A stretch of DNA of 17,123 nt from a bacterium (GTDB taxonomy: Bacteria > B130-G9), in the NCBI GenBank assembly GCA_021160245.1, contig JAGHCW010000074.1:1-17123 (forward strand), given 5' to 3'. This document shows, one piece after another, positions 935 to 8,996 of this stretch. The number at the start of each line of letters is the position of its first letter. The stretch's first letter is position 1. The translations under genes were made by a program, and so were the position numbers. The notes beneath the pieces were generated by a model that saw nothing but the letters and a program-made list of their open reading frames with translations, was not told the origin of the DNA and did no database searches.

Positions 935-1207
935 TTAGTTGAGCGACGCTCCCTCCTTCACCGCGAGTGACCCAAGATTGTAGGTGAGATATGGGTCTTG
1001 CGATTCATCTCTCAAGCCGGATACGTATTCTGTTCGAGATATAGGAACTACAGATTTGACCGCTCGAACGCTCTTCTTCTTTGCCCTAGGTAGTGATGAC
1101 GCAGAGGACAAAGCTGCCGAGACGTTTCTCGCCCGCCAGTATCTAACGGCCTCAAAACTCTTGCCAGCGCCGATGTGCCCGCACTCAACCACTACCCTGA
1201 AATACAT
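935..1207 (-). CDS. Small conserved-looking protein (90 aa) with Walker-A-like motif
   Basis: This is a 90-residue protein whose family I do not recognise with certainty. It opens with a predicted beta strand (YFRVVVEC, residues 2-9) followed directly by GHIGAGKS (residues 10-17), which fits the GxxxxGK[ST] Walker A pattern. There is no room for a full P-loop NTPase and no clear Walker B. A basic middle part (RAKKKSVRAVKS, about 61-72 by eye) and a C-terminal EYVSGLRDESQDPYL follow. No signal peptide or membrane segment is present. The ATG is well supported: AAGGAGG (1217-1223) lies nine bases upstream. The gene has its own sigma-54-type promoter and stands alone, pointing to conditional expression. 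It is likely a real cytosolic protein; nucleotide binding is unproven. Confidence 0.8.
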   Translation of the reverse strand: MYFRVVVECGHIGAGKSFEAVRYWRARNVSAALSSASSLPRAKKKSVRAVKSVVPISRTEYVSGLRDESQDPYLTYNLGSLAVKEGASLN

Positions 1208-1216
1208 TTTCTACCA

Positions 1217-1223
1217 CCTCCTT
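1217..1223 (-). promoter_or_regulatory. Strong ribosome binding site
   Basis: AAGGAGG on the minus strand, nine bases before the ATG of the 90-residue protein. It fixes that start and lies inside the short leader predicted from the sigma-54 promoter. Confidence 0.8.
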
Positions 1224-1242
1224 GTCTGATGTTCACAGATAT

Positions 1243-1262
1243 ATAAGCACTATTTGTGCCAA
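1243..1262 (-). promoter_or_regulatory. Sigma-54 (RpoN) -24/-12 promoter
   Basis: Minus strand TTGGCACAAATAGTGCTTAT. Compared with the RpoN consensus TGGCAC-R-N4-TTGC, the -24 element TGGCAC is perfect, the -12 element is GTGC, and the GG-to-GC spacing is exactly 12. The predicted start site is near 1235. This leaves a leader of about 28 bases that contains the Shine-Dalgarno of the downstream gene. No other site of this quality was seen elsewhere in the window. Confidence 0.8.
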
Positions 1263-1431
1263 ACCGTGATCATACGTTGCATATTCCGCTCTATCAGGGG
1301 GATTGCGAGCAGATTATGGGAAGAGCGGCGAATTCAGGGAATGAGTCGGGTAAATGGCAAAAAGAGTGTCATATAAATGGATATTAGCGTGAATGCAAGC
1401 AGATAAGGACAACATACCCAGTTTTACTAAC

Positions 1432-1447
1432 TGTCCCATTTGGGACA
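1432..1447. promoter_or_regulatory. Palindromic operator/enhancer site 1
   Basis: TGTCCCA-TT-TGGGACA, a perfect 7-2-7 inverted repeat. Its centre is about 205 bp upstream of the predicted sigma-54 start site. It is identical in all 16 bases to the second site, whose centre is 32 bp (three helical turns) away. This fits an upstream activating sequence for a dimeric sigma-54 activator. Confidence 0.7.
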
Positions 1448-1463
1448 ACCAGGCCGGAATTAC

Positions 1464-1479
1464 TGTCCCATTTGGGACA
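1464..1479. promoter_or_regulatory. Palindromic operator/enhancer site 2
   Basis: Second exact copy of TGTCCCA-TT-TGGGACA, centre about 237 bp upstream of the predicted sigma-54 start site. It faces the same side of the helix as site 1. The activator gene itself is not in the window. Confidence 0.7.
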
Positions 1480-5674: not shown

Positions 5675-5774
5675 CACTTAACTGCCGGAGCTTGCTTTCT
5701 TGGGGGCAGAAAGCCACATTGAAGTAGTCCTTTTGAATAGGGCATTGTCCGGTTTAACAAAGAGATATTATTCG

Positions 5775-8700
5775 ATGATCACAAGGCTGCGTTTAATAGC
5801 CTTTTTATGCTCTCTCGGCTTTCTCACTTTGGCGTTGTCTCCCGTCTCTGCAATGGGCGAGACGATTGAGGTGCGTGTTGAGGCGGGCGCCTTGAGTTTC
5901 GAGACGACGAAGGCGGGCGAGATACCCCGGGTTGACGGTTTCACCAACTGGGGTCCGGCGGGATCGCCACTGCTGCCCAGGAAGGCGCTCGAGGTCCTGC
6001 TTCCGCCTGATGTCGATCCCGGTTCCGTTGCCCTGAAGGTTATGGTCGTGGATGTGGTCAAGCTTGATGGGACACACGATATCGCGCCCGCGCCGCCAAT
6101 CACCACCGAGGATAGGAATGGCAAACTGGTCTATCTCTGGGGGACGGCTGACCGAATCGTCGAGGGTAGGAATGTCGCCATATATGGGAGCAGCGGGTAT
6201 TACCCCGCGAGCTGCGGTGAGCTAACGTCTCTCTCGCAGATGCGCAAGTGGCGTTTTGCGAAGCTCCTGTTCACTCCCGTTTTGTATAGCCCCTTGGCCG
6301 GGTATGTCAGGCTTGTCAAGAGCGCGACATTCACAATCAGTTACTCTCGGATTGACGCCACTGGCAGTTACAGAAGCTCCGCCGATGACCCTATGTCCGA
6401 TGAGGCGAGAGCGCGTTTTAAGAACTTCGAGCAGGCTCAGATGTGGTATCAGCCTCGGGCTGGAGATGCACCGCGCAAGTCGCAAGTTTTCGATTATGTG
6501 ATAGTGACGACTGAGGCGATCAAGGGCGGGAGTAAGGTGCTCGAGCGATTCATGGGGCACAAGGCGTCCCTGGGCTTCTCACCTCTGGTAGTAACCGAAA
6601 GCGATTATGGATCTATGGTCGGGCAGGCCCCTAACGGCCGGTCTGAGAAGATTCGCAAGTGGCTTGCCGACAACTATCTCCTCTATGGCATTGAATATGT
6701 GCTTATGGTGGGAGACCCAAATCCCGATACTGGAGACGTTCCGATGAAGATGTGCTGGCCCAGGAACAACGTGTGGTACATGCCAGAGCTCGACTCCGCT
6801 CCAACCGACTTTCTCTACAGCGACCTAACCGGCAACTGGGACTTGGACGGGGACGGGTATTATGGTGAATACGATGGGGACAGAGGCCCCGGAGGGATAG
6901 ACCTTACTCCAGAGGTTTATGTCGGTAGGATTCCTGTCTATCAAGGGGATTACACGACGCTCGATTCGATCCTGCAGAAGCTGATTGATTACCAATCCGC
7001 GAAGGGCGATCTCGCATGGCGAAGGAAGATTCTTCTGCCGATGAGTTTTTTGAATGCGGAAATTGATAACGCGAGTCTTGGTGAGAGTATATTGGGTCAA
7101 CTGGCTTCAATGGGGATATCCGGATACAAACTCTACCAACAGGGAGCGTGTATTGACGATTCGGTGTTCGATAGCGATGAAGAGCTCGTTGGCGGGGCGG
7201 TCGCGCAACATTGGGCCAATAATGCCTACGGCCTCCTAACCTGGTCCGGCCACGGCACCTCGTGGGGTACCTACATCGGCTACGGCAGCGAGGAGCACTT
7301 CTGCGGCGAGATTCTCCATATTTCGAATTGCGAGAATCTCGATAACAAAAAACCGGCTATTGTATTTCAAGCCGCATGTGGCAACGGCCCTCCTGAAGAG
7401 CCTGAAAACCTCTGCTATGCGCTTCTAAAGTCGGGTGCCGTCGCAGCGATTGGGGCATCGAGATCAGCTTTTGGCAACGGAGTGTGGACGGGGCCAAAGG
7501 GAGTTCATTCAAATGAAGAGCTCGCATACGAGACGATGAGGCGGATTGCCGTTAACTCATCCCCAGTAGGGGAGGCTCTGGCATTGGCCAAATCCTCACT
7601 CATCGCAAGCGATCCCTCTTGGCTTATGAACTGCATCCAATACAACCTCCACGGCGATCCCCAGGTCCACTATGATCAGTCCTATCAACCAGCAAGACCA
7701 GTTCTGTTCAATGGCTCCGTCGATCCTGAGAGAGGTATTCCTGGCGCGGTCTTCACCTTCTCGGTTCGCTATCTGCATTCAGACGGCTTTGAGCCTGTTA
7801 CCAGTTCTGTAGTTGTCGATGGCGAGGAGATGGCGATGGAGGTCGTCTCGGGCTCGGCGTCTGACGGTGAATACGCCTGGCATTCAGAATTGCCCAAAGG
7901 TGAGTACTCCTTCTTCTTCGAGTTTTGCGACGCGCAAGGCAATGTCGTCCGCCTGCCGGAATCGGGCTCCTATCCAGGGCCTTCTGTGGGGATGGAGGAC
8001 AGCCTGGTCGATGGCGCTGTTCAGCCGGAGTCAGGCACGACAGACGATGACTACGTTTTCACCGTCTATTATTATGATGCGGACGGGGACGCCCCGATCA
8101 CCGGAACTGTCGTGATAGGGGACGACTCTCACGAGATGTCGCTACAATCCGGGCTTGCCCACGCGGGAGTATATGGTCTTCAGACAAACTTGCCGGTTGG
8201 GGAGTATTCGCATCATTTCGAGTTCTGGAACAACGATGGTGGATTTATCCGGTATCCCGATTCTGGAGATCACAAGGGCCCCTCGGTCGGCTACAATACC
8301 TATCTTAGGCACGGCTCGGTGAGTCCAGAATCCGCCTGCGCCATATCGACTTTCAGCTACTCCGTCCTTTACTACTGTGGAGACGGCGACGCACCCGTCA
8401 CGCGGGCTCTCTTCATCGACGGACGCGCACGCGAAATGTCCTTGTCGAAGGGTGACGAGGCGCATGGGATATACCAGCTGAGGACTCAGCTTGATCCGGG
8501 GGAGCACTCATACCGCTTTTTATTTGCCGACGGCCGCGGAGGAGTTGCGCGGTTGCCAGACCAGGGAGAGTATAAAGGTCCGAATGTGGCCGGCCACGGA
8601 CTGGCATTGGGGATCTCAACTGGTTCTGCTCTATACGATTTCGGTGACGTTCTTCCCATCACTGTGGACCTCATGAATCTGGAGAACATGGTCATCGTCG

Positions 8701-8996
8701 ATGTCTATCTGATCATGACTTTCATCCCCCCGGGCAGTGATGAGATTATCTGGTCTGCCTTGCCTGACGGCCAATGGCGAGAGGGTCTATTGCCCGTGAC
8801 GACGGGGCTTCAGATTCCCGCCGGCTTCGAGTACTCCAGTCTGCTGTGTTCCTTCGTATTGCCCTGCGCCTCGCCCAATATCTCGGAGCACGGTGACTAT
8901 ATCCTCAGAATGGCCGCCTTTGAGTCTGGCAGCCTTGACCTCATCTCAAACATCGCTCAGTGCAGTTTCGAGGTCGGTTCTCTGGAAGCGGAATAG
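5775..8996 (+). CDS. Secreted gingipain-type cysteine peptidase (C25 family) with three Ig-like repeats
   Basis: A 1073-residue secreted protease (numbering from the ATG at 5775). This start is preferred over an in-frame TTG at 5700 because it gives a standard signal peptide: ITRLRLIA, a hydrophobic core, then SPVSA-M. A C25-like propeptide follows (about 27-235, with GSPLLPRKALEVLLP and KWRFAKLLFTPVLYSP). The catalytic domain starts near 239 (FDYVIVTTEAI) and contains PTDFLYSDL, a calcium-loop-like DLDGDGYYGEYDGD (356-369), the catalytic His493 in WSGHGTSWG and Cys535 in FQAACGNG, as in gingipains and caspase-like peptidases. Three tandem 100-residue repeats (640-940) and a final beta domain (941-1073) follow. 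No typical type IX sorting domain is recognisable. It probably cleaves extracellular proteins; specificity is unknown. It converges on the propeller gene at 9064. Confidence 0.88.
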   Translation: MITRLRLIAFLCSLGFLTLALSPVSAMGETIEVRVEAGALSFETTKAGEIPRVDGFTNWGPAGSPLLPRKALEVLLPPDVDPGSVALKVMVVDVVKLDGTHDIAPAPPITTEDRNGKLVYLWGTADRIVEGRNVAIYGSSGYYPASCGELTSLSQMRKWRFAKLLFTPVLYSPLAGYVRLVKSATFTISYSRIDATGSYRSSADDPMSDEARARFKNFEQAQMWYQPRAGDAPRKSQVFDYVIVTTEAIKGGSKVLERFMGHKASLGFSPLVVTESDYGSMVGQAPNGRSEKIRKWLADNYLLYGIEYVLMVGDPNPDTGDVPMKMCWPRNNVWYMPELDSAPTDFLYSDLTGNWDLDGDGYYGEYDGDRGPGGIDLTPEVYVGRIPVYQGDYTTLDSILQKLIDYQSAKGDLAWRRKILLPMSFLNAEIDNASLGESILGQLASMGISGYKLYQQGACIDDSVFDSDEELVGGAVAQHWANNAYGLLTWSGHGTSWGTYIGYGSEEHFCGEILHISNCENLDNKKPAIVFQAACGNGPPEEPENLCYALLKSGAVAAIGASRSAFGNGVWTGPKGVHSNEELAYETMRRIAVNSSPVGEALALAKSSLIASDPSWLMNCIQYNLHGDPQVHYDQSYQPARPVLFNGSVDPERGIPGAVFTFSVRYLHSDGFEPVTSSVVVDGEEMAMEVVSGSASDGEYAWHSELPKGEYSFFFEFCDAQGNVVRLPESGSYPGPSVGMEDSLVDGAVQPESGTTDDDYVFTVYYYDADGDAPITGTVVIGDDSHEMSLQSGLAHAGVYGLQTNLPVGEYSHHFEFWNNDGGFIRYPDSGDHKGPSVGYNTYLRHGSVSPESACAISTFSYSVLYYCGDGDAPVTRALFIDGRAREMSLSKGDEAHGIYQLRTQLDPGEHSYRFLFADGRGGVARLPDQGEYKGPNVAGHGLALGISTGSALYDFGDVLPITVDLMNLENMVIVDVYLIMTFIPPGSDEIIWSALPDGQWREGLLPVTTGLQIPAGFEYSSLLCSFVLPCASPNISEHGDYILRMAAFESGSLDLISNIAQCSFEVGSLEAE
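7692..8594 (+). repeat. Three tandem 100-residue Ig-like repeats within the C25 peptidase
   Basis: Units at 7692-7991, 7992-8291 and 8292-8594 (100, 100, 101 codons). Each shares a pattern of V-x-PES near the start, a YYxxDGDAPVT stretch, then DG/GD...EMSL, GxY, LPxGEYSxxFEF, GGxxRLPDSGxYxGPSVG. The DNA copies have diverged, so the duplication is old. The likely role is a stalk or substrate- or surface-binding module behind the protease domain. Confidence 0.85.

Follow-up and report, generated by a model that had tools for sequence, protein, structure and literature searches.

The closest described system is the TspS/TspR pair of Acidithiobacillus caldus, which switches on sox genes, thiosulfate being the signal proposed for it (PMC6335251). 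TspR serves the sox-II cluster as its sigma-54 response regulator, the UAS of TspR is TGTCCCAAATGGGACA (PMC6335251), and the reported domain layout of TspS is sCache_3_2-HAMP-HisKA-HATPase_c (PMC12194929). The window analysed here, a stretch of 17,123 nucleotides (contig C115 of a 3.43-Mb draft genome in 244 contigs), carries a palindrome that equals the published TspR UAS letter for letter, in two copies upstream of a gene for a 90-aa protein. The likeness to the A. caldus system comprises the identical 16-bp UAS, the sigma-54 promoter, an NtrC-type regulator composed of a receiver, an AAA+ and an HTH_8 domain and, in the Nitrospiraceae locus L074, the kinase architecture. In contrast, the sites are here paired 32 bp apart, the candidate activator gene has no neighbouring kinase, and the place of sox genes among the predicted targets is taken by a small protein, secreted proteins and a probable small RNA (sRNA). 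There is good support for the module as a genuine and conserved sigma-54 promoter belonging to a TspR-like regulon that has taken in new targets, and its elements are the following:

1207 to 935, minus strand: gene for the 90-aa protein (open reading frame with ATG start; orthologues in the related genomes G001, G002 and G003)
1223 to 1215, minus strand: Shine-Dalgarno sequence AAGGAGGTG, recognised by sequence, kept in G001 and G003 and weaker in G002
1261 to 1247, minus strand: sigma-54 -24/-12 element TGGCACAAATAGTGC, TGGCAC-N5-GTGC, with TTGGCAC and TGCT invariant in four genomes
1432 to 1447, no strand assigned: predicted promoter-proximal enhancer palindrome TGTCCCATTTGGGACA, which reads TGTCCCAAATGGGACA on the other strand
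1464 to 1479, no strand assigned: predicted distal enhancer palindrome, identical TGTCCCATTTGGGACA, 32 bp away from the proximal one, or about three turns of the helix

This is the layout of a sigma-54 promoter dependent on an enhancer-binding protein (EBP), as the first-pass annotation had proposed, and the retention of the -24/-12 element and the palindromes in three relatives supports that reading. The two identical palindromes were found as that annotation had described them, about 205 and 237 bp upstream of the inferred start site with a start-to-start spacing of 32 bp, and the gap between them and the -24 element is 170 bp, inside the enhancer range of about 100-250 bp upstream. Within TGGCACAAATAGTGC, the GG and GC are spaced 10 bp apart, as sigma-54 -24/-12 elements require; the promoter had been called near-consensus, and the element is present, with the correction that the quoted TTGC is actually GTGC, one mismatch. 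Taken alone, the -24/-12 motif is weak evidence, as its frequency in the window is near chance (2 matches with at most one mismatch versus 1.1 expected); with GG and GC fixed, its chance is about 0.4% per given 250-bp stretch of one strand. The paired palindrome is not a chance occurrence: for a 3.4-Mb genome, 0.2 single sites would be expected and, for pairs, about 1e-7.

The 90-aa frame is a real gene under purifying selection, because the differences from its relatives number 13/16/47 and 17/16/50 at the three codon positions. The Shine-Dalgarno sequence and short leader noted earlier in front of it are confirmed, and the family it belongs to has the conserved motif GHxGAGKS...PRxKKK...EY..G. 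The description of this protein as the only regulated product is plausible for its own promoter, since the neighbouring gene (39-584) is convergent, although no terminator was found. An 81-aa open reading frame (984-1229, plus strand) overlaps the 90-aa gene and was rejected as spurious. On the other side, the palindromes sit 38 bp beyond the stop of an acetyltransferase-like gene (1517-2632), and the order ApbE, glycosyltransferase, acetyltransferase-like gene and 90-aa gene is common to the window and G002. Elsewhere in the window, a 1098-aa open reading frame (5700-8996) resembles, by reading, a C25-type peptidase that is exported and contains repeated domains.

Among 60 relatives searched, close homologues of the 90-aa protein occur only in three genomes of the same family (58-73% identical), one of which, G003, includes a contig of Candidatus Coatesbacteria B130_G9. 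In all three, the palindromes and a TGGCAC element lie upstream of the orthologue with a gap of 169-170 bp, and in G002 one palindrome is perfect and the distal one degenerate; thus, a search for homologues lacking both the -24/-12 element and the palindromes found both kept in each of the three. The alignment of the four genomes retains the palindromes, TTGGCAC, TGCT and the start codon, while the intervening sequence has diverged, and this conservation of palindromes and promoter amid divergence settles the module as genuine. The recurrence of promoter and palindromes at homologues, which the first-pass annotation had proposed to check, therefore holds in the same-family genomes and does not extend to the Desulfobacterota loci checked, which are without these palindromes. 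Weak 90-aa matches with E values of 0.03-0.09, seen in unrelated genomes and mostly interrupted by stops, were dropped. In G001, a further pair on contig C128 has no recognisable -24/-12 element, and RpoN was not found in that genome, perhaps owing to a gap in the draft.

The module had also been called stand-alone, a claim refuted by palindrome pairs at four other places in the same genome. Specifically, the genome has nine perfect (12/12) palindrome sites, eight of them arranged as four flawless pairs, and one more pair contains a single mismatch; the spacing is 32 bp on C115, C21, C45 and C52 and 31 bp on C76. A TGGCAC-type element lies 109-170 bp from four of the five pairs (109-141 bp on C21, C45 and C52), and no recognisable -24/-12 element was seen at the C76 pair. 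The neighbours are a short open reading frame (C21), an 881-aa and a 146-aa protein with signal-like N-termini (C45 and C52, respectively) and a subtilase-domain protein (C76); no recognised sulfur gene lies beside any of the five pairs. The existence of at least five pairs indicates a regulon wider than the single 90-aa gene and, as the module is multi-copy and shares its word with a thiosulfate-sensing switch, the 90-aa gene is part of a broader control network that is probably linked to sulfur. About 1 kb from the C21 pair, on the strand opposite to the sigma-54 element, there is an open reading frame that looks BMC-shell-like by reading (L109:5608-5655; L001:144-431).

The genome encodes RpoN on contig C176 and at least seven EBPs, and the search of the full genome for the activator, proposed in the first-pass annotation, yielded a candidate EBP gene on contig C53. 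The same palindrome pair was found by a scan of genome contigs in a Desulfobulbaceae locus (L042) and in three Nitrospirota loci (L046, L060, L074); kinase and EBP genes adjoin the pair in L042 and L074, and the L074 kinase has by Pfam the sCache_3_2-HAMP-HisKA-HATPase_c layout reported for TspS. Among the seven EBPs of the genome that were compared, the C53 protein is the closest to these pair-adjoining EBPs (49-50%, the next at 41-42%), a likeness judged against EBPs beside this UAS in other phyla. Conversely, in the genomes G060, G061 and G063, the best of the 91-108 matches per genome to the C53 activator lies within 6 kb of a pair. The C-terminal recognition helix of all seven best matches contains R[KR]QLRT[KR]M, which is shared by the C53 protein and absent from the second-tier EBPs whose tail was recovered; among the EBPs of the genome, only the C53 protein matches in this helix those adjoining the palindromes elsewhere. 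On these similarities, the C53 product is most likely the activator of the window module, and the assignment appears strong, although no kinase gene was found beside it among the open reading frames in the first 9 kb of C53. The activators would thus share one recognition helix across phyla, offering a testable regulator-site pair.

The sulfur link is drawn from other phyla. A pattern consisting of the palindrome pair spaced 31 bp, with 24 fixed bases and at most three mismatches, was found in 24 of 395 Nitrospirota genomes versus 1 for the reversed control. TauE-type (10) or YeeE-type (7) genes adjoin 17 of these 24 loci, PhnD-like, kinase or EBP genes are present at other loci, and a sigma-54-like element lies within 260 bp of the pair in 21 of 24; Pfam assigns the transporter neighbours to TauE and Sulf_transp, with a weak similarity to TsuA. 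Nitrospirota and Desulfobulbaceae pairs alike adjoin TauE-/YeeE-type transporters, often together with a TspS/TspR-like kinase-activator pair. The first-pass annotation had supposed that the small protein may be an effector or regulator of a stress or nutrient response; where the motif occurs outside this lineage, it and the genes around it suggest the sensing of reduced sulfur and support such a role for the switch in general, with sulfur transporters as its predicted usual targets. The loci in question (L042, L046, L060, L074 and L190-L212) share with the window the palindrome pair (31-33 bp spacing), the sigma-54 element and the activator recognition helix, but differ in their transporter targets and in enhancer-promoter gaps that are mostly 41-129 bp, against 109-170 bp here. 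The switch, described in the literature cited only from acidophilic sulfur oxidisers, thus appears with the same word in Nitrospirota and Desulfobulbaceae and, wired to different genes, in an uncultured lineage related to Candidatus Coatesbacteria. In a public scan, many pairs, among them those of Rhodobacteraceae (with CGCG centres), Tannerella and Coriobacteriaceae, had no sigma-54 element nearby and were discounted as belonging to other systems; L041, L047, L050, L053, L055 and other Rhodobacteraceae carry TGTCCCCGCGGGGACA pairs 30-34 bp apart, again with no close sigma-54 element, which probably serve a different regulator with a similar word. The main text of a paper on the Desulfovibrio sigma-54 regulome contains no such palindrome motif.

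With site, promoter, recurrence, conservation and the genes for an activator and RpoN all read from the sequences, the occupancy of the palindromes, the resulting transcription and the identity of the activator can be inferred as follows. An NtrC-type response regulator acting as a dimer, in all likelihood the C53 product, would bind both palindromes and oligomerise, loop across about 170 bp to the RNA polymerase-sigma54 complex on the -24/-12 element and hydrolyse ATP to open the promoter, from which a short transcript encoding the 90-aa protein would be made. Activator and site would be of the TspS/TspR type, and the lineage would have put other genes under the same switch, namely those for secreted proteins and the 90-aa protein and, in related genomes, the one for the probable sRNA. 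That the window holds one target promoter of a TspR-like sigma-54 regulon, with C53 as the most likely source of the activator, is held with good confidence. A reduced-sulfur signal in this organism is what we infer least firmly, because no sulfur target was recognised in this lineage and no kinase adjoins the C53 gene.

The same module and TspR-like activator could answer a non-sulfur signal, for example envelope or surface stress, a serious possibility that falls somewhat short of being probable. The predicted targets here (secreted proteins, a subtilase-type protein and a small protein) would suit such a signal, as would the frequent position of the Desulfobacterota homologues with a histidine kinase on one side and a DegP/HtrA-like protease on the other, and the absence of an adjacent TspS from the C53 activator; yet both the site and the recognition helix are the same as in the sulfur-linked systems of other phyla. 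The palindromes might also be bound by another EBP, considering that the genome has several further EBP-like genes, but this is unlikely in view of the C53 protein being clearly the closest to the palindrome-adjoining EBPs and alone among its own in having their helix. It is less likely still that the palindromes are classical repressor or activator sites, or RNA hairpins ending the acetyltransferase-like gene, next to a chance -24/-12 motif. Their position 38 bp after the stop of that gene, the near-chance frequency of the -24/-12 motif by itself in the window and the TGTCCC/GGGACA pairs with other centres that lack a sigma-54 element in Rhodobacteraceae and others are compatible with this explanation, but no terminator-like site was found, and the -24/-12 element and the palindromes are kept together at a fixed distance in four genomes and recur elsewhere.

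In addition to the small protein, the TspR-like module precedes in G001, G002 and G003 a stretch of about 110-150 nt that is conserved and looks non-coding, a probable sigma-54-driven sRNA judging from its sequence:

L106, 2366 to 2512, plus strand: probable small RNA with the palindrome pair upstream
L105, 1619 to 1511, minus strand: probable small RNA with the palindrome pair upstream
L107, about 6650 to 6545, minus strand: probable small RNA with the palindrome pair upstream

In the three related genomes it adjoins a gene for a CCG-domain iron-sulfur protein, and it ends in a GC-rich hairpin, with a few compensatory changes among the three sequences. Rfam gave no match for it and no named RNA in the window, and the genome of the window yielded no convincing copy. 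A widespread unnamed small-protein family and a probable new sRNA would have been placed under this switch in one lineage.

The 90-aa protein received no name from Pfam, NCBIfam, PHROGs or PDB searches, and the family was not found in viral contigs. Its earlier designation as an orphan is contradicted by a profile search, in which 21 Desulfobacterota genomes and 2 Nitrospirota genomes, out of 395 searched for each phylum, proved to have homologues. The Desulfobacterota GHxGAGKS family (alignment A3) is 29-45% identical and shares E8, G15, P40, K43 and E60, but none of its 28-30 loci that were checked has a TspR-type palindrome upstream, and degenerate palindrome pairs upstream of these homologues were not convincingly above shuffles; therefore, the family exists without TspR-type control. 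Several of these genes are flanked by a histidine kinase and a DegP/HtrA-like protease, and others adjoin thioredoxin-like or TonB-receptor-like genes or Lon, names that were assigned by reading the sequences, without a family search.

The single-sequence model of the 90-aa protein is strand-strand-helix-strand-helix with a pLDDT of 67. The structural matches listed are ribosomal and, where named, correspond to archaeal LX/L18Ae and eukaryotic eL20 (Z 6-7), the comparison with the eL20/LX fold reaching Z of about 7 across 63-66 residues of that model. The likeness to eL20/LX concerns the predicted fold of a low-confidence model and is not accompanied by a sequence relation: homology was not supported, with a profile comparison (hhalign) probability of 2.7% and no Pfam match, using LX sequences fetched from the PDB. 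RNA binding by the 90-aa protein is, on this model, a lead only. It is unlikely that the family represents undescribed small RNA- or ribosome-binding regulators with an eL20/LX-like fold that a TspR-type sulfur signal induces alongside a sigma-54-driven sRNA; if it did, the lineage would answer a sulfur signal post-transcriptionally as well as via secreted proteins.

Other sigma-54-like elements occur at three Desulfobacterota homologue loci. L146 and L147 have a TTGGTATA-type element 51-57 bp upstream of the small-protein gene and a different, long inverted repeat about 100-150 bp upstream (GATACGGCCTGA...TCAGGCCGTATC in L146), and L148 has a TGGTAC-type element. Lastly, the Desulfobacterota homologues of L156 and L157 (proteins at 1501) bear long C-terminal extensions and those of L149 and L159 a C2H2-zinc-finger-like tail, indicating that the small domain is modular.
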